Shown here: positions 4,838-17,187 of the stretch, in pieces
How the letters are laid out: every line of letters starts with the position of its first letter
How positions within the stretch are numbered: the first letter of the stretch is position 1
DNA from: Secundilactobacillus malefermentans DSM 5705 = KCTC 3548
GTDB lineage: Bacteria; Bacillota; Bacilli; Lactobacillales; Lactobacillaceae
Direction of reading: 5' to 3'
Assembly (NCBI RefSeq): GCF_001436395.1
Contig: NZ_AZGJ01000005.1
Location: 11,043-64,281 of the forward strand
Length of the DNA stretch: 53,239 bases
Translations under genes and position numbers: made by a program
The notes under the pieces: generated by a model
Seen by the model: the letters and a program-made list of their open reading frames with translations, nothing else
What the model was told of the DNA's origin: nothing
Database searches by the model: none

Positions 4838-5158
4838 ATGGTATGGTTAGAATTGTTCGTTGCCGGCATTTTTGAAACCGTTTGGGCAACACTGATGAAG
4901 TACAGTCATGGATTTACAAAGTTGGGATTCTCAATTGCGACAATCGTCACCATGGCAATTAGTATCCTGCTTTTAGCACGAGCCACCAAGTCCCTACCGC
5001 TTAGCATTGCCTACCCTGTCTGGACTGGAATTGGCGCAGTTGGTAGCATCCTTGTCGGTGTCGTTTTGTTCAAAGACGCTCTTTCTCCCCTTACTTGGGG
5101 ATTTGTTGCATTACTGATTATTGGAATTGTTGGTATTAAAATGACAACTGGAAGTTAA
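4838..5158 (+). CDS. Small multidrug resistance (SMR) exporter, Gdx/SugE-like
   Basis: A 106-residue protein with four transmembrane helices. The essential membrane Glu is near residue 13 in GIFETVWA. KYSHGF follows, and the helix-3 motif is LSIAYPVWTGIGAVGS. These resemble the Gdx/SugE branch, which exports guanidinium or quaternary ammonium ions as a dual-topology dimer in exchange for protons. Proteins of this branch work alone, which fits the single gene here. The ribosome binding site TTGGAGGA is 8-9 bases upstream. A perfect hairpin follows directly. I do not see a guanidine riboswitch upstream, so guanidinium as substrate is uncertain. Confidence 0.87.
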   Translation: MVWLELFVAGIFETVWATLMKYSHGFTKLGFSIATIVTMAISILLLARATKSLPLSIAYPVWTGIGAVGSILVGVVLFKDALSPLTWGFVALLIIGIVGIKMTTGS

Positions 5159-5160
5159 AA

Positions 5161-5188
5161 AGAACGGCCAAAATTGGCCGTTCTTTTT
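5161..5188. terminator. Bidirectional terminator
   Basis: AGAACGGCCAAAATTGGCCGTTCT with T-rich flanks on both strands is a near-perfect stem. It ends the SMR exporter from the left and the acetyltransferase from the right. Confidence 0.9.
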
Positions 5189-5191
5189 AGT

Positions 5192-5734
5192 CTACCCCGT
5201 TGCATCCTGCTCAATGATTGGGTCAAACAGTCCCCAACTAAAGACGGACATTACCTTTTTAAAGTTTTGAGTGGGTAGCTTTCCTTTATTCGCCATGGTT
5301 GCGTATTCGCCGCCAGGTTCCTTGAGTCGGTGCGGTGTTAAGTAAAACCCGTTGCGTTCATAGAATCGCACCCGTTTTTGTCGCTGATCATAATTAGCGG
5401 CCTTTTCGTCTAATGGTTCAACGTTTAAAACAATCTGCTTTTCGGGATAAGTTTCGAGTAACCAATTGATAATTTTGGTTCCATAACCCTTCCCACGAAT
5501 GGCATCGTTAATCGCCAAGTAACTCACATAAATTGTCTGGTCAGCAAGACAATAATAAATGAACCCACACAGTGTTTCATCATCATAAAATACCCTGAAA
5601 ATTAACTGTTTTCGTAAGGTCATCAATGTTAGAATCTCCAGCGGATAAGTTTCGTTCGGTGGAAACGCACTCTTATAGAGCTTCTTAATTTCTGGAAAGT
5701 TCCTGGAAAATAGGCGTACGTTTTTTACTAGCAT
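5192..5734 (-). CDS. GNAT family N-acetyltransferase
   Basis: A 180-residue protein with the GNAT acetyl-CoA binding pattern: YVSYLAINDAIRGKGYGTKIINWL (R-G-x-G-x-G/A type, about residues 70-90), then VLNVEPLD, and FYERNGFYLTP near residue 130. The substrate cannot be told. A clear AGAAAGGA site precedes the ATG. It is convergent with the SMR exporter and shares its terminator. Confidence 0.85.
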   Translation of the reverse strand: MLVKNVRLFSRNFPEIKKLYKSAFPPNETYPLEILTLMTLRKQLIFRVFYDDETLCGFIYYCLADQTIYVSYLAINDAIRGKGYGTKIINWLLETYPEKQIVLNVEPLDEKAANYDQRQKRVRFYERNGFYLTPHRLKEPGGEYATMANKGKLPTQNFKKVMSVFSWGLFDPIIEQDATG

Positions 5735-5803
5735 ATAGTGTCCTTTCTATCTGTCTGTATTTAACGCTAGCGTAACATGGTGGCTTTTTTAAGACAAGAA
5801 AAA

Positions 5804-5827
5804 GACTGCAGCCGGTTCACTGCAGTC
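5804..5827 (-). terminator. Terminator of the copper operon
   Basis: Minus-strand hairpin GACTGCAG (eight-base loop) CTGCAGTC, followed by TTTTTCTTG. It lies 14 bases after the small membrane peptide gene, placing that gene inside the copper transcript. Confidence 0.88.
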
Positions 5828-5840
5828 ACAATCCACTTAT

Positions 5841-5948
5841 TTACATAATCCCCGCTAAAATGATGCCAGCAATCATTGCCACGATGACGTAGCCGACCGC
5901 CACAACACTCGTGACTAATGCCGATTTTTTTGAATTTTGATTTTCCAT
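5841..5948 (-). CDS. 35-residue membrane peptide at the end of the copper operon
   Basis: A very short gene: Met, a polar start (ENQNSKKS), then about 25 hydrophobic residues forming one membrane helix (LVTSVVAVGYVIVAMIAG, then IILAGIM). An AGGAG site lies eight bases before the ATG. It begins 18 bases after the ATPase stop and ends just before the operon terminator, so position, ribosome binding site and composition all support a real gene. I do not recognise the family. By analogy to KdpF-type peptides it may stabilise or tune the ATPase; this is inference only. Confidence 0.7.
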   Translation of the reverse strand: MENQNSKKSALVTSVVAVGYVIVAMIAGIILAGIM

Positions 5949-5966
5949 TGAAATCTCCTCTATTCG

Positions 5967-7880
5967 TTATGCCGTTGCGAGTTTTGTCTTGTTCAAGAGT
6001 AAAGAACTAGCGACAACTGACAGTGAGCTAAGTGCCATTCCCAATCCGGCTAACTCTGGACTGAGTACTAAACCAAGGCCAAAAAAGACGCCTGCTGCAA
6101 CCGGAATACCGAGTGAATTATAGATAAACGCCCAGAATAAGTTTAATTTAATTCGATTAAAGGTCTTTTTACTCAATTCCAAGGCCCGGACGACATCCAT
6201 CAAGTCATTTTTAACCAAAACGATTCCGCCCGATTCAATCGCAATATCCGTTCCAGAACCCATAGCAATCCCAACATTAGCAGTTGTCAATGCTGGAGCA
6301 TCGTTGATTCCATCGCCAACAAATGCGACCGGTGCCTGCTCCTGTAGTTTCTTAATATGGTCTGCCTTATCACCTGGCAAGACGTCGGCAATAACTTCAT
6401 CGATTTTAACTTGATCCGCAATTGCTTGGGCAACCCGCTGGTTATCTCCTGTTAGCATTACCGTCCGCATCCCAGCCTTTTTCAAGGCTGCGATTGCAAC
6501 GGCGGAACTTGGCTTGGGGACATCCTGAATAGCAATTAATCCGATAATGTCACCATTCAAACCGACAACTACCACCGTTTTCGCTTCATTTTGAAGTTGG
6601 GTCATTTGCGCCTGTAACTCAGCTGACAATTTACTATCTTCTAATAGTTTGGCATTTCCAACGAATGCTGATTGTCCGTCAACTTGCGCACGAACACCCT
6701 TACCTTCAATTGCTTGGAAGTTTTGGAGGTTGGTGTCTTCAATATTCTTTTCGTTTGCCTTATCTAAAATTGCGGTCGCAAGTGGATGTTCTGAAGCAGA
6801 CTCAAGCGCTGCTGCAATTTTGAGGACTTGGTTCTCATCACCGATAATGTCAGTCACTTTTGGCTTACCAACCGTAATCGTTCCTGTCTTATCAAAAACA
6901 ACCGTTTTAACGGTGTTAACAGCCTCAAGAACTTCACCATTTTTGATTAAAATTCCCATCTTTGCACTGCGACCAGTTCCAACCATTAACGCAGTTGGTG
7001 TTGCGATTCCAAGTGCACAAGGACAGGCGATAATAATCACTGAAACAGTGAACAGCATTGTGCTGACCGCACTTGCCCCCACGATTGAATACCAGACAAC
7101 AAAGGTCAGAATGGCAATTATTAGAACGACGGGAACAAATATGTCCGCAACTTTATCGACTACTTTTTGAATTGGTGCGTGGCTAGATTGGGCCTTCTTA
7201 ACCATTTCAACAATCTGAGCTAATAACGTATCGTCACCAACTTTGCTTGCTTTAAACATGAAGGTTCCATTACTGTTCATGGTTGATCCAATAACCGCAT
7301 CACCAACCTTCTTTTCAGTTGGCATACTTTCACCCGTGACCATGGATTCATCAATTGTTGAATTTCCCTCAGTAATGACGCCATCAACTGCAATCTTTTG
7401 GCCTGGCTTAACGCGCAATATATCCCCCACAACAACTTCTGATAGTGGAATCGTCACCATTTTGCCATCACGTAAAACTTCAGCATTTTTAGCCTGCAAA
7501 TTAAGAAGTTTATCAACTGCACCCGATGCGCTATGTTTCATATTTTCTTCAAATACCTGTCCCAATAGGATTAGCGTAATCACCACGGCTGCATCTTCAA
7601 AAAAGACGCCTTGGTTATTTAACATCGCGTAAACACTATAGAGATAAGCCGTCAGAGTACCAATCGCAACCAGTGTATCCATATTGGCATGATGATGTTT
7701 AAATGATGCCCAAGCAGTTTGAATAAAGCCTCGACCAGATACCAACATAATCGCCGTGGTCAGCAGGAACTGACTCCAAACGCCTCCTGGAATCTCGTAG
7801 CCAAACGGCATCATCATCATGTTAATTAGGATTGGAATTGAAACGATTAATGAGAAAATGAATCGATTCCGAATACTCAT
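5967..7880 (-). CDS. copA: Copper-exporting P1B-type ATPase without N-terminal metal-binding domain
   Basis: A 637-residue heavy-metal ATPase. Visible motifs are TGES near residue 182, CPC in the membrane near 286, DKTGT near 330, the HP of the nucleotide domain (SEHPLATAI) and GDGINDAPAL. YN and MALSSLS in the last helices match the Cu(I)-type (P1B-1) signature. No CxxC heavy-metal-associated domain precedes the first helix. The ATG at 7880 overlaps the cupredoxin stop (ATGA) and has AAAGGTGG upstream. It is preferred over an earlier in-frame start inside the cupredoxin gene. With the membrane cupredoxin and the peptide it forms one operon. CopB-like specificity is less likely given the C-terminal motif. 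Confidence 0.9.
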   Translation of the reverse strand: MSIRNRFIFSLIVSIPILINMMMMPFGYEIPGGVWSQFLLTTAIMLVSGRGFIQTAWASFKHHHANMDTLVAIGTLTAYLYSVYAMLNNQGVFFEDAAVVITLILLGQVFEENMKHSASGAVDKLLNLQAKNAEVLRDGKMVTIPLSEVVVGDILRVKPGQKIAVDGVITEGNSTIDESMVTGESMPTEKKVGDAVIGSTMNSNGTFMFKASKVGDDTLLAQIVEMVKKAQSSHAPIQKVVDKVADIFVPVVLIIAILTFVVWYSIVGASAVSTMLFTVSVIIIACPCALGIATPTALMVGTGRSAKMGILIKNGEVLEAVNTVKTVVFDKTGTITVGKPKVTDIIGDENQVLKIAAALESASEHPLATAILDKANEKNIEDTNLQNFQAIEGKGVRAQVDGQSAFVGNAKLLEDSKLSAELQAQMTQLQNEAKTVVVVGLNGDIIGLIAIQDVPKPSSAVAIAALKKAGMRTVMLTGDNQRVAQAIADQVKIDEVIADVLPGDKADHIKKLQEQAPVAFVGDGINDAPALTTANVGIAMGSGTDIAIESGGIVLVKNDLMDVVRALELSKKTFNRIKLNLFWAFIYNSLGIPVAAGVFFGLGLVLSPELAGLGMALSSLSVVASSLLLNKTKLATA

Positions 7881-8251
7881 GACTTCACGACCACCTTTCC
7901 GTGGAACATGTTCATGCCGCAAGCAAAGTCATATTCACCCGCTTTACTTGTATCAATTTCAATTGAATGGTTTTCATTTTGTGGTAAGTACTCATTGATC
8001 CCGAATTTTTCAAAGACCACTTGTTCCAAACAACTTGAGGGATCTATCCGGTTAAAATTAATTTTTGCTGGAATGCCCTGCTTTAGGACGACGGTTGCCG
8101 GTGAATAGCCACCACTCACAACGACATCCACACTTTGACCATCGGACTCAACATCAGCAGTCACTGCCTTTGTAACGTGCTTACCAAAGAACCACCAAAC
8201 AATAAACCCAATTAAAAGTACTGCAATAACGGCAACTAATATTTTATCCAT
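7877..8251 (-). CDS. Membrane-anchored cupredoxin-like copper protein
   Basis: A 124-residue protein: one N-terminal membrane helix (about residues 5-25), then a beta-rich cupredoxin-like domain outside the cell. Possible copper ligands are Cys in SSCLEQV, Cys, two Met and His in FACGMNMFHG, and His in ENHSIEI. It is coupled to copA by a four-base overlap. The ATPase lacks its own metal-binding domain, so this protein may supply or accept copper for it (inference). The ribosome binding site AAAAGGAG is well placed. Confidence 0.82.
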   Translation of the reverse strand: MDKILVAVIAVLLIGFIVWWFFGKHVTKAVTADVESDGQSVDVVVSGGYSPATVVLKQGIPAKINFNRIDPSSCLEQVVFEKFGINEYLPQNENHSIEIDTSKAGEYDFACGMNMFHGKVVVKS

Positions 8252-8294
8252 GATGAAAGATCTCCTTTTATGTATAATATAGAATTATTATGAT

Positions 8295-8304
8295 TACATT
8301 TGTA
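8295..8304. promoter_or_regulatory. CopY-type operator (cop box)
   Basis: TACATTTGTA matches the known cop box consensus TACANNTGTA exactly. It is 44 bases before the cupredoxin start and sits near the -35 region of a likely promoter whose AT-rich -10 (TATATT/TATTAT) lies around 8270-8280. Copper-dependent derepression is the expected control. No copY gene is in the window. Confidence 0.8.
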
Positions 8305-8333
8305 ATCCACAAATTAAATATACACCCTATGTT

Positions 8334-8343
8334 TACGTTTGTA
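8334..8343. promoter_or_regulatory. Second, imperfect cop box
   Basis: TACGTTTGTA has one mismatch to TACANNTGTA and is embedded in a longer dyad, GTTTAC...GTAAAC. It lies 39 bases from the perfect box. Paired boxes are usual for CopY-regulated promoters. Confidence 0.6.
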
Positions 8344-8354
8344 AACAGTGGAGA

Positions 8355-8384
8355 CAAAAAAACAATCTCCAATTAAGAGATTGT
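8355..8384 (-). terminator. Terminator of the XrtG locus
   Basis: Minus-strand hairpin ACAATCTC, seven-base loop, GAGATTGT, followed by seven T. It lies directly after the exosortase gene and separates it from the copper promoter. Confidence 0.88.
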
Positions 8385-8387
8385 CCG

Positions 8388-9042
8388 TTATTTCTTATTT
8401 AATTGGTTTTTTCTGTCATTTCCAAAACGCTCTTTTAGCTTATGCCAAGCTTGCAAAATCATCTTGTTAACACTTCGATATAGACTGTGTGAGATTTGGG
8501 AGAAGGTAAATACGTTGTAATAGAGCCTGATAATGAGGACGTAGAAAATGATTCGTCCCAAAATTGAATGGGCAAAGAAGAAAATATCGGCGCCAAAAAA
8601 GTGAACGAGTATAATGACACTCATCAAACGAATCAGGTTCGCCACGTAAATCCAGATTACCCCAACAATAACGAAAAATGCCTTTTCAAACCGATTATAG
8701 AATTGGTAGAAAAACAACCAAACTGACAAAGGCCGTTGTTTCAATAATGCCGGAACACTCATAATCAATCATCATCGTGACGGGTGACGTCGAATTATAA
8801 ATGCTAACTAATCCATACTTTGGCATAATCTCACTCATATGGGTTAACGAGCCTAGCCAACCAATTCCGTGCATGACGGCATGGGTAAAGAACCAGATCC
8901 AATAGGGATCACTTAATGTAATCAAAATAAAAAAGAGCCCAACGCTACCAACAATAAAGAAGAATGCGTATAGCTTTGAACGCTTTAATACTGAAAGGGC
9001 ATATAACCAGACAACTGCGCCAATTATTTGAAAAATGCTCAT
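8388..9042 (-). pseudogene. xrtG: Exosortase XrtG, frameshifted
   Basis: A membrane cysteine protease/transpeptidase of the exosortase family, G type. All three catalytic residues can be seen: Cys in DYECSGI, Arg in VANLIRL and His in FFAHSILGR. They are in two frames. The first part (from 9042) ends at a TAA at 8695-8697. The second (from about 8699) continues with YNRFEKAFFVIVGV to 8388. One extra base near 8700 explains the break: PI followed by YNRFEK is restored if it is removed. Read through, it would be about 217 residues with several membrane helices. It starts directly after the Firmicu-CTERM gene (TAA-ATG). A sequencing error cannot be excluded, but all the linked genes are also broken. 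Confidence 0.85.
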
Positions 9043-10380
9043 TTAATGGTCTCCGTTTTTTCTACCTAATTTTATTTTACGGGTTCCAGTCACACTAACA
9101 ACGGCTAGAATGGCAATTGCAAATCCAACTCCGGCGAGTACAACGGGACCTGTACTACCACTGGTGGTCATGACCTCGCCACTCCAAAGATTGGAATTCT
9201 CTAGGGTAATCGTTTGGTTCTCAGTCTTTGTTATCCCATCAAGTTTATCAAATGGAATCTTAACTTCCCATACGTAACCAGTTCCTGCGTAATCCGACCC
9301 ATCACCATTCTTTTATGTGATGTTCTGTCGACTTACTCCACCACCATCTTGCACAGTCGCATCTGTATTTGTAGCCGCGTCCCAGATATCAACTGGTACA
9401 ACCTTTTGCTCGCCAACATTTAGGTATACTGAACCATGATTATTTAAAGATATGTCATAGGTATGTCCACCCATTTTCAATTTGTAACCACTAGCCTGAA
9501 AATCGGTATAACCACCTTGTAATTTAGGCGTCATTGCAACATAAAAGTAAACGTTCTTTTTATCAGTCACCATTGCGACTTGCTTATCATTGTCATTGTC
9601 ACCGTCAGAAGTCATCGTTGATTTCGTAATGCTATCCCAATCGGAGAAAGCACCATCAATACTAATATTCATGTCACCGCTGATGTTGTTGTTCTCTGCT
9701 AAATTTTTATCTTTAGCGGGTGTGTCCTCACCATTTAAAACCTGCTGAGCAGCGCTAGAATCGTCACTATCAGTTGTGGTCGTATCATCAGGTACCGTCG
9801 TCGCCGTGTCAAAAGGCGTTGAAAAGTCATTACTTTCAGCGACTATTGGTTGCGGACTGAGTTCTGAGCTTGAAATCGAGACAGTTTGATCACCATCAGT
9901 ATCGCCAAGAGCCGTCTTTGAAATCTGGCCCTCTAATTCAACCGAATGCCAGATATAATTTGGCCCTTCGTTAGCTGAATACTCGACTGAGCCAACATTA
10001 GAATTTTTCTTCTGCCAATTTGAATCAGCCGATGAAATTGTATATTGTTTCGTTTCTCCGTAAGGCGGCGTGTAAGCATTCAGGTTCACAAAATAGGTAT
10101 TTTGACCAACAGTCAGGTTAAACCCATAAGGAATATAATTTTGTTGAGTCGAGCTAATATGAAAGTAAATTTCATCATTGCTTGTTATTACCGAAGTTGA
10201 ATACCCCGAAGTAGACAAGGTCTGTGAAGCACCTTGCCAATCATCGTAATTTCCATCAATAGATATTGATGATGCATTAACCGAAACGGGATGTGCAATC
10301 GCTGCAATAGTCACAGCAAACATAACGGTCCCTAAAATCGTTAATCCTAATTTCAAAATTCTTTTCATTGCATTTCTCAT
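9043..10380 (-). pseudogene. Firmicu-CTERM surface protein, interrupted by an in-frame stop
   Basis: The likely substrate of XrtG. It has a signal peptide (residues 1-36, RILKLGLTILGTVMFAV) and two beta domains that each open with an IDGxxxDW motif (IDGNYDDW, IDGAFSDW), separated by a Thr/Asp/Ser-rich linker. After codon 355 a TAA at 9313-9315 stops translation. The same frame then continues for 90 codons with plausible protein (DYAGTGYVWEVKIPFDKL). It ends in a tripartite sorting tail: STGPVVLAGVG, a hydrophobic helix, and a basic end TRKIKLGRK. The truncated product would be secreted without its anchor. GGGGG precedes the ATG by eight bases. Confidence 0.85.
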
Positions 10381-10535
10381 TTAGATGACCCCCATCCCTA
10401 AATAAAAGTCGTGTCTTTTTTATATAATCGAACAACCACATACCTTTTGCTTTGTCAACTACAGTATACACCTTTTATTTTACATTAATTACTCGTTCGT
10501 TTGATTTTAAGACAATTAGAGCACTTATTTGCAAG

Positions 10536-12116
10536 TCATTTCAGGTCATTGTGTTCTCTAAGTGCTATCTTACTCAAGCCCACAAAGAACTTTCGCGAAT
10601 CGTTCGCCACCATCGTCGCTAGTAAAATTATAACGGGCAAGTACTGAATCAAATAACGACTCCGTCCACCTTCAAACAGCAGTAGGTAAGCAAATCCACC
10701 CAGTATAGCGAGACGGAATAGTTGTGTCATTTTCTGCTTATTGTGCCAGCCAAAAGCAACCAACCCGAGTAAGAAAACCCACCAAACTTGCGAGATATAT
10801 CTAAAATCTCCTAGATGAGTCCCATACAAGTACACAAATTGTCGAAGAAATCCTGAAAAACCAGTTTCCTGAGGCGTTGGATTTTCATTAATAAAATGAC
10901 CTTCTTTGACCCAAGCAAAGGTTCCATCAGCCGTATTATTTCGATGCTTTAAAATTAAAAATTTTGCGTAGCCTACTGGTCCTAGCTTTTTAAGCCGTTT
11001 AACCAGCAACTTTTTAGAATAGTCAGATCGCGCTTTAACAGTCGGTAACTCTCCCATTTTTAATGCATCCTTGGGATTGTACCCACCGTCTCCCGAGACA
11101 CCCATACTAATAAAATGGATAGCTGGAACTGCCCGCAACCGGTTCACCACAATGTAATTCTGATTGTTGGTTACTTGCTTACCTCCAAAATAACCAGCTC
11201 CCAGCGCGACAACACAGAGCAATAGCAATCCCCACTTAGGCAAATTGTTTCTCCCGAGGCTATTACGAAAGTCTTTTAAATTAACTTGATGATCCTTTGT
11301 TCAATAAATGACTTCTATTAGAACAATCGCAATTACCGGCGCAATGGCGGAAGGTTTCATGAAGTAAGTGCCGGCAACTAATAATCCAAATAAAATTGCA
11401 AACACGGAACGTTGCCATAATTTGAACTTTTTATTTTTCAGTGCCACGTAACACAGTAAATATCCAGAAACGAATGGTAACACCCACGCATCCGTATAGG
11501 GAATAATGATGGTTGGAAACAGCAGTAGCCATGCTGATTCGATATACATCGCCAACGGAATCCGTTTCTTATCTAATAACAAGATTGTCAACAAAATAAG
11601 AACAGCTGATAGATCCACAACCAATAAGGTCATCAGATCAAAAAAGAGCCAAGAAGTCGTTGAAAATAGCGTCGCCAGCGCATGTTGAATAAGGAGCAAT
11701 GCCATATTGTTGTAGTACAAGCCAAAATAGGTTCGCAACTCAATATCCTGGGTGTTAATCAGGCCTTCATGAATGGCCCCCGCATCAAATCCAATCGCCG
11801 GGTGAACATTCAGAACGAAAATAATCTGCCAACAAACCACCAGAGCTAAACAAATGGCCGCCGTTAGTTTCTGATGTTTGACGAAAATTAACAAAAAATA
11901 GTGGCGCGCTTTCGGGTAAACGATAACTGACAGAATTAGAACGATCGAAATAACTATGAAAAAGGTCGTTACCATCGTGGTCCCAGCTCCAGTAATTTTA
12001 TTGTCCCCTAAAATTAGGTTTGGCGAGGTTATCGCAAAAATCAATGCGAGAAAGAAAAAAATATTAAAAAGGATTAACATTGCTCGATTGCTAAATCGAA
12101 AAAACCGATTCGTCAT
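10536..12116 (-). pseudogene. XrtG-associated multi-pass glycosyltransferase (copy A), in-frame TGA
   Basis: A large membrane protein like the glycosyltransferases linked to XrtG (TIGR03766-type). It has many hydrophobic helices and the family features HPAIGFDAGAIHEG, TYFGLYYNNMALLL, IIPYTDAWVLPF and, near the end, FEGGRSRYLIQYLPV. A TGA at 11301-11303 is codon 272 of 527. The frame stays open on both sides of it. The ATG at 12116 is preferred over the upstream GTG because GAGGAG lies ten bases before it. A paralogue with the same architecture lies at 15056-16588. A putative role is transfer of lipid-linked sugars to secreted protein (inference). Confidence 0.8.
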
Positions 12117-12143
12117 ATGCTGCTTGCCGCTCCTCACTTATTC

Positions 12144-12521
12144 TTATTCATCCTCATCTACTGACAAACAGTAGAACCGAGTTGGCGATTCTCCAACCTC
12201 AATTCGAGATAGTCTGGCATGAATTTTCTTTAGTTCTTTTCTGATTAGGTTAAACAAGTAGACCGTCACGTTTTCCACACTGGGATTTACCGTTTCGAAA
12301 TAGGCCAAATCGTTCAAAAATTTTCCGTTAATTAAAGATAAGACTTCATTCACAGATTTCTCCATGTCGTTAAAGATGACCATTTCATTTTCTCGAGTAT
12401 GAATTTCACATATAACTTCCCAAGTATGGTTATGTTACTTACCCATTCCACCTTCCCAGCGCATTGCATGACTCGCATTAACGTAGGAAATAATTTTATA
12501 TGAATGCTTTACAGTCGCCAA
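12144..12521 (-). pseudogene. QueD-like (6-pyruvoyl-tetrahydropterin synthase-related) protein, in-frame TAA
   Basis: A short protein of the kind found in XrtG loci. From a TTG start at 12521 (AGAGGTAAG upstream) it reads VNASHAMRWEGGMGK, then a TAA at 12435-12437, then HNHTWEVICEIHTRENEM and on to a normal end at 12144. SHAM and HNHTW correspond to the zinc-binding histidines of the PTPS/QueD family, and ETVNPSVENV and RIEVGESPT also fit. The stop is codon 29 of 126, so no useful product is expected unless translation restarts at the internal ATG at 12383. Its role in XrtG systems is not known to me. Confidence 0.78.
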
Positions 12522-12526
12522 TTTTA

Positions 12527-13864
12527 TTACTTACCTCTTTTTTTTAGTTTCTCAAAGTCGTCCTTAAAGACAATACCCAAGTTGTGCCGTTCATCGTCAA
12601 AATTCTGAGAATTCCATTTTGATGATTTTGTCATACTGTTGATAATTCCCACAAACCGAATCCAAGCACAAATGAAGTTATAGATTGGCATCGTGAAAGC
12701 AACCCACCCTTGTTTTAAGAAGAAATGGCGTTCCTCCGTAAAGTCGCGGAGCATTAACTGCGAACAGATCAAGTTCATTAGCTCCATAAATACGTACAAA
12801 ATGTAGATAATGACGTACGACATCCCTAATAGAATAGGCGAATAATTGAGCATTAATAAGACCAAACTCGCGAATATCCAAATCATCCTAGGAAACAAAA
12901 ATGTGTGGTCAATCACCATTCGTCTGACCAAAAAATCTTTAAAAAAGTGCTTTAATTCAACACTATTTGAATAGTTATGATCAACTTCAATTTCACCCCG
13001 TTGCCACCGTTGGCGTTGGGTATAGAGCTCACCCAGATTCTCAATTGGCTCCACATAAAAAATGGCATCTGGGCAAAGAATGACCTTTCGCTTCAACCGA
13101 TCTCTCAGCTGAAATGTCATATCTGTGTCTTCACCAACTGTCGACGTACTGTACAGAAACGTTGACATCAACGCTTCTTTTCTAAAAGCAGAAAAGGCGC
13201 CAGACATCGTATATAGCTCATTTCTATCGGATTCAATGGTTCGTCCCACCAAAAAGGCTTGAGCATACTCAAAATATTCGTTTCGTTGTAAGAGGCGATG
13301 TCACAGGTTAGATGTGCTCTGAATTAATTTCTTCTGAGGCAGTATCGTTCCCGTCATCGCAGCAACGTCATAATCATTTTCAAAACGCAGCACCATATTC
13401 ATTAAAGCGTTCTTTTCAAGAATGCCATCACTATCGATGTTAATAATATAGGTGCCAATACTTTCATAAATAGCAAAGTTTAAGGCTTTTGCTTTACCCT
13501 TTTCTGTATGGATGAGCTGCATATGCAAATCCTTAAATTCATTTTGAGCGTGTGCAAAAGCCCCAAAGCTATCATCCGTACTTTGATTATCAGCAAGGAT
13601 AATTTGAATTAAATTAGATGGATATGTCGAATTCGCAATCGATTGAATACATTCAAACAATGTTTCTTCCGAATTATACACGGGAACGATCAGGGAAATC
13701 ATTGGCATTTTATCTGGAATATCTAACTTGTGCTTTCTAAACTGAGTAAAAAGGAGTTTGATTGCTTTTAAAAAGGCAGGTATCAACTCGACGATAAGTG
13801 GAATTAATGACCAAGTCAGCCAAAATCCCATACTTAAAAGTGTTGTTTCAATCCAGTATCTCAT
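12527..13864 (-). pseudogene. XrtG-associated family 2 glycosyltransferase, in-frame TGA
   Basis: A membrane glycosyltransferase of the type associated with XrtG (TIGR03111-like). It has an N-terminal helix, then the GT-A domain with SLIVPVYNSEETLFECI, LADNQSTDDS and the metal-binding INIDSDG. Q/RxxRW is represented by TQRQRWQRGE, and two to four C-terminal helices follow. A TGA at 13301-13303 is codon 188 of 446. Downstream the frame continues with NEYFEYAQAFLVGR, GAFSAFRK and VGEDTDMTFQLR, all expected. The ATG at 13864 has GGGAGG seven bases upstream. A promoter (TTGTAC, 17 bases, TAGAAT) precedes it, so a second transcript may start here. Confidence 0.83.
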
Positions 13865-13902
13865 CGTCAAGCCTCCCTCTGCTTTTGAGTCAGTGTATCC
13901 AT

Positions 13903-13931
13903 TCTAAATCACTTACCCGTGATGTACAAAT
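13903..13931 (-). promoter_or_regulatory. Putative promoter of the second XrtG transcript
   Basis: On the minus strand TTGTAC and TAGAAT are separated by 17 bases, about 40 bases before the glycosyltransferase ATG at 13864. It lies downstream of the 14005-14048 terminator, so the locus probably has two transcription units. Confidence 0.45.
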
Positions 13932-14004
13932 GGGACTAATCAGTCTCTCATTAAACCGGTTTACTGAACTCTTCGTTCTATTTTACCCGACATGTATCCA
14001 AAAA

Positions 14005-14048
14005 AGCAATCCAAGGCGCGTCATTCTCATGATTTGCCTTGAATTGCT
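14005..14048 (-). terminator. Terminator inside the XrtG locus
   Basis: Minus-strand stem AGCAATTCAAGGC / GCCTTGGATTGCT (one mismatch) followed by six T. It begins directly after the stop of the dolichol-phosphate-mannose-synthase-like gene and separates the first two genes of the locus from the remaining five. Confidence 0.82.
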
Positions 14049-15056
14049 CTATTTAAATTGATTTGAATAAAAATCAGTCTCAATCTCAAATCGAGGACGA
14101 TGTTTTACCTCTGTAAAGACTTTTCCAACGTACTCACCAATAATGCTCAATGACACCAGCTGTACGCCACCCAAAAACCAAATGGAAATCATCAGGGATG
14201 ACCAACCTGCCGTCGTGTTACCCACCATTCATTGAATAATCGTATAAATCATTAAGTAAAGGCTCAAGAGGACAATAATCGTACCAAGATAGAGAATTGC
14301 TTTAATTGGGGCAATTGAAAAGGAAGAAATGCCATCAACCGCAAAACTCAGCATTTTTCGGAGTGGATACTTCGTCTTACCGGCAAATCAGGATTTTCTA
14401 GCATAGTAAACCTTTGAGCTTGGATAACCGACTAACGGCACAATTCCTCTTAAAAAGAGGTTTTCTTCCTTATATTTCAAAAGGCCCACCATTGCTCGGC
14501 GACTTAACAACCGGAAATCAGCATGATTTGGAACCATTTTGACGCCAAAGCCTGCCATCAATCGGTAAAAAAGCTTTGCAGTTGTTCGCTTAAACCACGT
14601 ATCAGTTTCCCGATTATTCCGAACGCCATAAACAACGTCCTTGCCTTCTGCGTAGTCCTGCACCATTTTGGGGATTGCATTAACATCATCCTGTAAGTCA
14701 GCATCAATGGTAATGGTCATATCCGCATGCTCCTTGGCAACGGTCAATCCGGCAATCAAGGCATCTTGGTGCCCAAAATTACGGCTAAACTTGATCCCAG
14801 TCACATACTTATTTTTCTTCATTAACATTTCAATTAATTCCCAAGTACGGTCCTGGCTGCCATCATTGACATAGAGGATTCGACTGCCTTCCCCAATCAG
14901 GTGTTCACCACTCAATTTATCTAAAATAATTGATAACTGTCTTGTCGTTTCCTCAACGACAGCCTCTTCATTGTAACAAGGCACAACAATCGTCAAATTA
15001 TTCCCGCGTTCCTCCAAAATTGACATCTTCTTTCCGTTTGATTGCAATTGTGTCAT
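14049..15056 (-). pseudogene. DPM1/GtrB-like glycosyltransferase, two in-frame TGA codons
   Basis: A family 2 glycosyltransferase resembling GtrB and dolichol-phosphate mannose synthase, which load a sugar on a polyprenyl phosphate carrier. Motifs are TIVVPCYNEEAVVEE, YVNDGSQDRTWELI, SRNFGHQDALIAG, TIDADLQDD and FAGKTKYPLRKM. The C-terminus has two membrane helices. TGA codons at 14388-14390 (codon 223) and 14229-14231 (codon 276 of 336) interrupt it. The first stands where related enzymes have Arg before FAG. The downstream frame is otherwise intact to TAG at 14049. The ATG at 15056 overlaps the previous gene's stop. The product would supply lipid-linked sugar to the two TIGR03766-type enzymes (inference). 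Confidence 0.83.
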
Positions 15057-16588
15057 CACTTCCACCCAAGAAAGAGATATCGTTCATCGCCATGATAATG
15101 AAGCCATTTTTTGGCCCTGATTAAGGCATTAAATTCATGCCAACCAACAACAGCCAGCGTCGAAATCATTGGTAAAAATTGAATTAAATATCGTGAACGG
15201 CCGCCTTCAAATATCAGCAAATATAGAATGGCTCCAAAAACACTCATTCGAAGAATTCGCATGATCATCGACTTATCAAAGAAACTAAATAGAATTCCCG
15301 CAAACATTGTAATCCAAATAATTTGAGAAATTGTCGATGAAATTCTCAAGTTAGAACCGTATGGATAAAAGAAGGTTCTAATAAAATGATAATGATCATA
15401 ATTCGATTTGCTAAAGAATTGTCCCTCCTTGAGCCAGCCAAGGGTTCCGTCGCTCGTGTTTGTGTAGTTCTTTTTAATTAAGAACCCAGCATATCCGAAA
15501 ATACCAAAATTACCGAGGCGTTGACGAATCACTTTCATATTCCATTTTTGTTGTTGTTTTAAAGTTGGGAAACTAATGCTGTACTCGTAATCAACCTGTG
15601 AATAGCCACCCGTTGATTGTTTATTCATTCCCATCATGATGAAATGGCTTGGTAATTGCTTTTGATTGGGATTAATGCCAATAAATTACTGTTGCTTAAC
15701 GTATGATTGACCCGCAATCTGGTAAACGCCAAATAAGATAATTGTCAATAATGACGTTAACCCAACCGCTTTCCAATTAAGCTTTGAACGGGCAAAAATA
15801 GCGACTAAAATGAGTTCTACCACCACTGCAATTAAAAGGATGATAGCAGTCGGCTTCAACTCGTATGCCACCCAGGATACAATTCCGAGCAAACCAGATT
15901 GCCAAGTGAGCCGTAGCCACGATTCCTGCTCCTGTTGCCAGCTCGTCACAATCAAACTCAGCAACAGAACCATTCCTGCTACAAAAGGTAGAACAAACGT
16001 GTCAGAGTATACGACAACAATCCATGGTGAAATGAGTAAAACCAGTGGAATCATTGTCCCTAAAATGGCTGATTTTAAGTACTTTCTCAACATCAAGGCA
16101 ATCAAGAAAATCGCAATATCGATTAAAACTAAGTTCACAACGTCCAGCGTAATCATAAAATTCGTAATGTTGAGTCCTTGACTAATGTGGTAAATGCCAC
16201 GTTCCAGGAACATCAACATGAGGTTGTTGGGATACTGTGAAAAGTAGTTAGCTAAATACGATCCGCCCTCAATTGAGGGACTGGCTGCCGCCCACTTGAC
16301 AATACCAGAATCAAATCCAGTCTCGCCCGCGATGGCCACCAATAAAACAATTTGGTAGATTCCAACAAGGATCATAAAGGTCCATTTGGTGCTTAACCAT
16401 TTGACTGCCTTAAGATTAATCTGGCGCTTTCGCAGAGCCCAATGTCCGGCACCCAACAAAAGTAAGACGAACAACCCGCCACCAATAATCAACCCATTCA
16501 GGTTATCTGAAACAAGTACGCCCGCAAACGTCACAAAAAACACAATTCCCAATATCCAATTGATAATTGCGATAAATTTATTCTCCAT
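15056..16588 (-). pseudogene. XrtG-associated multi-pass glycosyltransferase (copy B), in-frame TAA
   Basis: A paralogue of the gene at 10536-12116, with many membrane helices. Shared features are ETGFDSGIVKWA, NYFSQYPNNLMLMF, SPWIVVVYSDTFVLPFV, LKPTAI and FEGGRSRYLIQFLP. A TAA at 15686-15688 is codon 301 of 511. The frame continues with FIGINPNQKQLPSHFIMMGMN, which aligns to the same region of copy A. The ATG at 16588 has GTGG six bases upstream and is preferred over an upstream GTG. It is the first gene of the locus. It overlaps the next gene by one base (TGATG). Confidence 0.8.
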
Positions 16589-16643
16589 ATTTTCCACCAC
16601 TTCTAAATAATTATTAAACGACTATGTATATAACACATTATTA

Positions 16644-16673
16644 AGTATAGCGTATTTAATTATCAAAAGTTAA
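16644..16673 (-). promoter_or_regulatory. Putative promoter of the XrtG locus
   Basis: Minus-strand TATACT at 16644-16649 with a weak -35 (TTAACT) 18 bases upstream, about 56 bases before the first ATG. The stretch is very AT-rich, so other -10 choices are possible. Confidence 0.4.
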
Positions 16674-16686
16674 TTTTTTCTAATAA

Positions 16687-16719
16687 AAGAGCAATCTCAC
16701 GGCGAGATTGCTCTTTTCT
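16687..16719 (-). terminator. Terminator after the PncC-like gene
   Basis: AAGAGCAATCTC, short loop, GAGATTGCTCTT: a perfect 12-base stem with T-runs on both strands. It ends the 16723-17187 gene and insulates the XrtG locus from it. Confidence 0.9.
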
Positions 16720-16722
16720 TCA

Positions 16723-17187
16723 TTAAATTGCTAAGTAGCTCACTAACAAATCGACACCCGCCTGCCGGCTCTGTGCCATGATCGACTCAGGGTCGCCTTT
16801 GAAATGGTACGTTTTTGCAATTGATGTGTTTCGATCCGCGACACCAATACATACTGTTCCCACCGGTTCACCATTCAGCGGCGTTGGTCCCCCAGCCCCA
16901 GTAAATCCCAATGCAAAATGAGTGCCGGCTAATTTACGCGCCTGTTGCGCCATTTTCTTGGCAACCTCCTCGCTCACCACCCCACACTTATCGATCACGG
17001 TTTCCGGCACGCCCAGAATTTTGGTTTTTGCTTCAGTTGCGTACGTAATGAACCCCCCAGGATAAATGTCGTGTGCTTCAGGCGTCGCTGCCAAATGAGT
17101 TTGGAAGGTACCACTTGTCAGGCTTTCAGCGCTTGTGAGTGTCAGCTTCCATTTGGCTAAATACTTGGCTAAGGTTGGGATATCCAT
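16723..17187 (-). CDS. pncC: Nicotinamide-nucleotide amidase, stand-alone CinA C-terminal domain
   Basis: A 154-residue protein consisting only of the CinA C-terminal domain. Typical motifs are LTSAESLTSGTF, ATEAKTKILGVP, GVVSEEVAKKMA and GFTGAGGP. The family removes ammonia from nicotinamide mononucleotide to give nicotinate mononucleotide in the pyridine nucleotide cycle. The N-terminal competence/damage domain of full-length CinA is absent, as in E. coli PncC. GGAGGCAC precedes the ATG at 17187. It is a single-gene unit with a strong terminator. Confidence 0.85.
   Translation of the reverse strand: MDIPTLAKYLAKWKLTLTSAESLTSGTFQTHLAATPEAHDIYPGGFITYATEAKTKILGVPETVIDKCGVVSEEVAKKMAQQARKLAGTHFALGFTGAGGPTPLNGEPVGTVCIGVADRNTSIAKTYHFKGDPESIMAQSRQAGVDLLVSYLAI

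Follow-up and report, generated by a model that had tools for sequence, protein, structure and literature searches.

The exosortase G operon and its lesions

The stretch of DNA analysed here (the window) comprises 53,239 nucleotides of the Secundilactobacillus malefermentans genome and corresponds to positions 11043-64281 of contig 98 in a 2.05-Mb draft assembly of 152 contigs. Profile searches identified seven adjacent genes on the minus strand, running from position 16588 to position 8388, as an exosortase G (XrtG) operon with the order GT39b, a PgfS-like family 2 glycosyltransferase, the family 2 glycosyltransferase TIGR03111 (GT2), the 6-pyruvoyl-tetrahydropterin-synthase-related protein (PTPS) TIGR03112, the glycosyltransferase TIGR03766 (GT39), the Firmicu-CTERM substrate and XrtG. 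An earlier note, made from the sequence alone, had claimed that each of these genes carries at least one inactivating change, and all eight lesions that it listed are indeed present: seven in-frame stop codons and one frameshift. The claim that the frames continue as conserved sequence past the lesions was borne out as well, since the frames on both sides of the breaks could be aligned to relatives. At the positions of the stops, the aligned relatives have sense codons, and open copies of each enzyme gene are present in other species.

The first gene of the operon, GT39b (15056..16588), encodes a membrane glycosyltransferase related to TIGR03766 and is interrupted by TAA at 15686-15688 (codon 301 of 510). 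Its score against TIGR03766, 278.8 bits, is under the cut-off of 500, and the protein was classed as a relative only; its nearest relative is found in Pediococcus cellicola (L051:4581-6140, 53% identity). The PgfS-like gene (14049..15056) carries two TGA codons, at 14388-14390 (codon 223 of 335) and 14229-14231 (codon 276 of 335), and its product is 76% identical to the P. cellicola counterpart. The best model for this protein is the PgfS equivalog NF047588 (cut-off 500), against which its first piece scored 137.6 bits, below the cut-off. Since even the open P. cellicola protein remains far under this cut-off (240.7 bits), we held the name to "PgfS-like". The GT2 gene (12527..13864) is interrupted by TGA at 13301-13303 (codon 188 of 445), and the two resulting pieces match model positions 3-180 and 201-437 of 439 with 256 and 335 bits, each alone being below the TIGR03111 cut-off of 363.95. 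In the PTPS gene (12144..12521), whose start codon is uncertain, TAA at 12435-12437 occupies codon 29 of 125; the downstream piece by itself scored 79.5 bits, above the TIGR03112 cut-off of 69.35.

The GT39 gene (10536..12116) yielded 702.4 bits against TIGR03766 (cut-off 500) with a single TGA, at 11301-11303 (codon 272 of 526), inside the match. Likewise, the Firmicu-CTERM substrate (9043..10380), whose N-terminus appears hydrophobic by eye, matched TIGR04145 with 194.2 bits (cut-off 50) across one TAA at 9313-9315 (codon 356 of 445). The last gene, xrtG (8388..9042), is split over two overlapping open reading frames, 8695-9042 and 8388-8768, which lie in different frames as a result of a single-base frameshift near 8701-8711; its N-terminal piece scored 124-126 bits against TIGR03110 (cut-off 102.75). 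Codon 29 of 125 and codon 276 of 335 mark the range over which the lesions are scattered within their genes, and two of the seven stops lie at 80% of gene length or beyond.

Just downstream of xrtG, there is a terminator-like hairpin with a T-tail (8360..8386, minus strand). Terminator-like sites numbered 11 in the region, compared to 6.8 expected from shuffled sequences. Promoter-like sites were no commoner in the region than in shuffles (24 and 25.9, respectively), and we therefore claim no promoter. By family annotation, a working operon of this kind should supply a surface protein of the Firmicu-CTERM type, which XrtG would process or anchor and the linked glycosyltransferases would glycosylate. 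Since no gene of the operon is open end to end, such sorting and modification activity is not expected in this strain. Our literature search retrieved no description of this operon.

Lesion density in the genome and in other XrtG loci

The earlier note had considered the genes on both sides of the operon intact. This agrees with our results: nine flanking proteins were submitted to Pfam, and each matched a family. On the rest of contig 98, homology covered approximately 22 kb, and this contained a single lesion, in pepT. The peptidase T gene in question has one in-frame stop relative to pepT of Secundilactobacillus oryzae (79% identity) at approximately position 5637 of contig 98, i.e., outside the window and ca. 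13.8 kb to the left of the locus.

As a wider control, 481 kb of this genome (40 stretches picked by contig number rather than at random) and contig 98 were searched for homology to a reference set of 1853 proteins of relatives; the comparison covers genes that have a relative in this set. Homology-covered sequence amounted to 239.6 kb, of which 7.8 kb belonged to the locus and 231.8 kb lay elsewhere. Outside the locus, 19 raw candidate rows were obtained. Inspected by eye, five of these were start-edge effects, eight were shadow frames, three were weak frameshifts and three were plausible stops, and six rows were considered plausible. One stop, at L203:2407, lies inside a gene that by eye resembles a ribosomal-protection-type protein. 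The lesion density is therefore 1.02 per kb in the locus (8 in 7.8 kb) compared to 0.026-0.082 per kb elsewhere, a 12- to 40-fold difference. The cluster exceeds chance whether all 19 outside rows are counted (binomial P 1.6e-6) or only the 6 plausible ones (P 3.3e-9).

We also examined XrtG loci of relatives. The best 80 of 305 relatives found, together with four loci from the genus and after removal of three duplicates (L054, L057 and L089), gave 81 loci with 374 genes; this set may omit very near genomes, the nearest operon being 71% identical in the GT2 protein. By a rule that scores the five core genes only, 67 of the 81 loci had no broken core gene, 10 had one, 4 had two and none had more than two. 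The window has four by the same rule, and five out of five once the stop in the TIGR03766 gene is added. The rule is not exhaustive, as it misses this stop and also a stop in the P. cellicola CTERM gene. In Companilactobacillus kedongensis (L096:10331), C. mindensis (L072:9188) and Lactiplantibacillus nangangensis (L069:11636), an XrtG-associated glycosyltransferase gene that is otherwise conserved contains a lone in-frame stop, which the rule counts in each case. The corresponding protein of C. keshanensis (L090), 95% identical to that of C. kedongensis, is open.

The possibility that XrtG genes are a general hot spot for lesions was considered and set aside. Although 44 rows were found in 362 kb of such genes compared to 27 rows in 491 kb of other genes (binomial P 0.0007), we draw nothing from this count, since by eye many rows were extended-start or shadow-frame artefacts and the depth of reference differed between the two sets.

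Probable transfer and decay, and competing explanations

The operon was probably acquired by horizontal transfer, to judge from its distribution and from trees. XrtG was found in 5 of 15 genomes of the genus. In the trees of GT2, GT39 and XrtG, the window's sequence groups with that of P. cellicola (support 1.0, 1.0 and 0.93, respectively), and the congener copies (three of GT2, two of GT39 and four of XrtG) sit apart from this pair. Together with genes for a GNAT acetyltransferase, an E1-E2 ATPase and a cupredoxin, the operon forms an accessory block of 11.6 kb (5159..16730). The block is missing from S. oryzae, the sole congener compared, where the gene matching window positions 4838-5155 abuts the gene matching cinA. 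Among the repeats in the region, nothing was taken for an insertion boundary.

We consider it likely that the whole exosortase G operon, probably transferred, was recently inactivated and is now decaying as a unit under relaxed selection. Inactivation may have started with a loss of need or with one first hit, after which all genes of the operon would have been free of selection and would have collected stops independently. A switching-off followed by independent hits was one of the two readings offered by the earlier note and is the better supported of them. The note had also held that lesions in all of the genes call for an explanation, which is true only in part: several hits across the operon are allowed because relaxed selection covers all of its genes, but the probability of eight lesions striking all seven of them is only 0.006-0.012.

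If the operon were free of selection, missense changes should have accumulated along with the stops. The outgroups agree at 1274 sites; among these, departures confined to the window numbered 101 and those confined to P. cellicola 73 (one-sided P 0.02). One of the outgroups in this count was a PgfS row that aligns poorly (L253), and its removal gave 102 and 73. In the core genes only, the corresponding numbers were 60 and 34. Extrapolated over 2593 codons, the excess is 57 +/- 27 changes, compared to 60-104 expected beside seven neutral stops. With a looser threshold, the window had the most departures of 11 aligned rows (130 of 837 sites); with a strict one (26 of 498), L025 and P. cellicola were higher. 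The branch leading to the window is longer than that of P. cellicola in the trees of GT2 (0.258 vs 0.184) and XrtG (0.327 vs 0.114), and in the GT39 tree the two are about equal (0.305 and 0.301). The missense excess is weak, and weakly suggests relaxed selection.

A number of observations weigh against this reading. The missense excess fades at stricter sites, to 61 vs 44 (P 0.059) and 29 vs 21 (P 0.16). Fully invariant sites were departed from at 3 of 231 positions and nearly invariant sites at 9 of 354, which places the window at ranks 8 and 6 of 36 loci, respectively (coverage filters left 71 XrtG, 74 GT2, 67 PTPS, 63 GT39 and 59 CTERM sequences, and the ranks come from a hand-chosen closer set). 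Private residues are about as frequent in the window (97 of 1758) as in P. cellicola (94 of 1729; GT39b left out). Missense changes of the GC-to-AT type are not raised either: the window has 12 and P. cellicola 19 at conserved sites and 2 and 4, respectively, at invariant sites, where about 16 were expected.

The spectrum of the lesions themselves is also unusual. The residues of P. cellicola at the seven stop sites are Gln (three sites), Trp (two) and Arg (two), and each stop therefore looks like a GC-to-AT transition, although some of the alignments, those at 13301 and 11301 above all, fall in variable regions. If an assumed transition-biased spectrum is applied, the probability that all seven would be of this type is about 0.01; it ranges from 1e-5 under a flat spectrum to 1 under a pure GC-to-AT one. 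Furthermore, nonsense accounts for seven of the eight lesions and frameshift for one, P being 0.0002-0.0008 against three yardsticks taken from other organisms or loci, namely Sodalis pseudogenes (Table 2 of PMC3499248) and other XrtG loci (5 stops, 13 frameshifts). Since the tests overlap one another and were picked once the data were known, we treat the pattern as a mild anomaly. Nevertheless, plain decay predicts a less peculiar spectrum than this one, rich in nonsense and poor in missense, and leaves it unexplained. A mutator or repair defect behind the GC-to-AT stops was rejected, as the genome has ung, mutS and mutL, all without a stop in the matched stretch. No common motif was seen around the affected sites when their contexts were compared by eye.

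The same spectrum is what makes selected silencing the foremost competitor, albeit an improbable one. According to this explanation, expression of the operon would be harmful or costly, for example, because its surface glycoprotein is used by a phage or because a half-working pathway ties up lipid carrier. Truncations would then be favoured gene after gene with little accompanying missense, and the dead pathway would be rich in nonsense and nearly free of missense. The excess of nonsense over frameshift and the fact that all genes are hit agree with this, and so does the count of window-only GC-to-AT missense changes, which at rising strictness was 12, 5 and 2 compared to 24, 20 and 16 expected (P 0.12, 0.017 and 0.004, all changes being counted as decay). 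However, a single hit should suffice to silence the operon, and the two late stops would bring little saving. Selection should favour frameshifts as much as stops, yet only one is present, and the missense excess as a whole agrees with neutral decay.

Base miscalls or misassembly where coverage is poor appear less probable still. The genome is a draft, and low-quality reads do generate spurious internal stops, as reported in PMC11017572, but seven false stops imply some 60-104 missense miscalls, whereas the invariant sites are almost untouched and the covered flanking genes are clean.

Readthrough or regulated recoding, by which ribosomes would pass the stops and the operon would still work, was the second reading of the earlier note, and we find it very unlikely. 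Conservation of the frames past the stops and the small missense load at invariant sites are in its favour. However, TAA, TGA and a frameshift would all have to be bypassed in this one operon, lesions are rare across the 231.8 kb sampled outside the locus, and none of 25 tRNAs found by ARAGORN in 23 stretches has a stop-reading anticodon (the tRNA set of the draft looks incomplete). The note had named relatives with the same stops and purifying selection downstream as a finding that would support readthrough; the aligned relatives have sense codons at the positions of the stops. Finally, deliberate base editing, writing one or two stops into each gene, is scarcely credible: Gln, Trp and Arg codons are those used by stop-writing base editing, and the nearest relative has one of these residues at all seven sites, but an NGG motif (the only motif considered) stands at the needed distance for just two of them, most of the stops fall in the middle or the late part of their gene and one lesion is a frameshift.

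Decay of the operon as a unit under relaxed selection would cleanly illustrate how a lactic acid bacterium loses an entire surface-sorting pathway. The strain would also serve as a natural knock-out for exosortase G, a system that has been little studied, and could be compared with relatives keeping it. If the nonsense excess recurs in other isolates, the locus would exemplify the silencing of a pathway by selection.

Comparison with known systems

Inactivation of one dead pathway by several hits has published precedents. In Chlamydia trachomatis, genes of the aaxABC pathway were lost by separate hits, and substitution rates gave no sign of relaxed selection because the loss is recent, as described in PMC2720952; separate hits have also been described for flagellar genes of subseafloor Thalassospira (PMC8406185). 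The window differs from both in that all seven genes are hit, and almost only by stops. Gene decay under relaxed selection is common to the window and to Sodalis pseudogenes, but in the latter small indels dominate and nonsense makes up 16-19% of disrupting mutations in the data given in PMC3499248, compared to seven of eight lesions here.

By gene content, the operon resembles the exosortase G/Firmicu-CTERM system, all five families of which (TIGR03110, TIGR04145, TIGR03111, TIGR03112 and TIGR03766) have adjacent members in the window, TIGR03111 being represented by two pieces that each score below its cut-off. Lactiplantibacillus plantarum is named in PMC12854382 as having a complete exosortase G system; in the window, in contrast, every gene is broken. 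The gene order differs too, since the CTERM gene and xrtG come last in the window operon and first, ahead of GT2, in S. collinoides and P. cellicola.

Within the genus, the XrtG set of S. similis (L024, L026 and L027) appears to come nearest to the window in number of breaks. Its GT39, CTERM and PgfS-like genes and one GT39b copy are broken, in several frames, and XrtG, GT2 and PTPS are open; the five-gene rule counts two of these breaks, the PgfS-like gene and GT39b being outside the core set. These breaks look like frameshifts and are distributed over three contigs, so that the set may be either a second, frameshift-type decaying XrtG locus in the genus or a product of sequencing indels.

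The locus of P. cellicola DSM 17757 (L051) has the same seven kinds of genes and is closest to the window both in sequence and in trees. As in the window, two extra glycosyltransferase genes are joined onto the operon, and P. cellicola has in addition a second GT39b copy, which is absent from the window operon. Unlike in the window, the six enzyme genes of P. cellicola are open. Its CTERM gene contains one in-frame TAA (L051:7806-7808), at a place other than that of the window's stop, and thus the P. cellicola locus is not fully open either.

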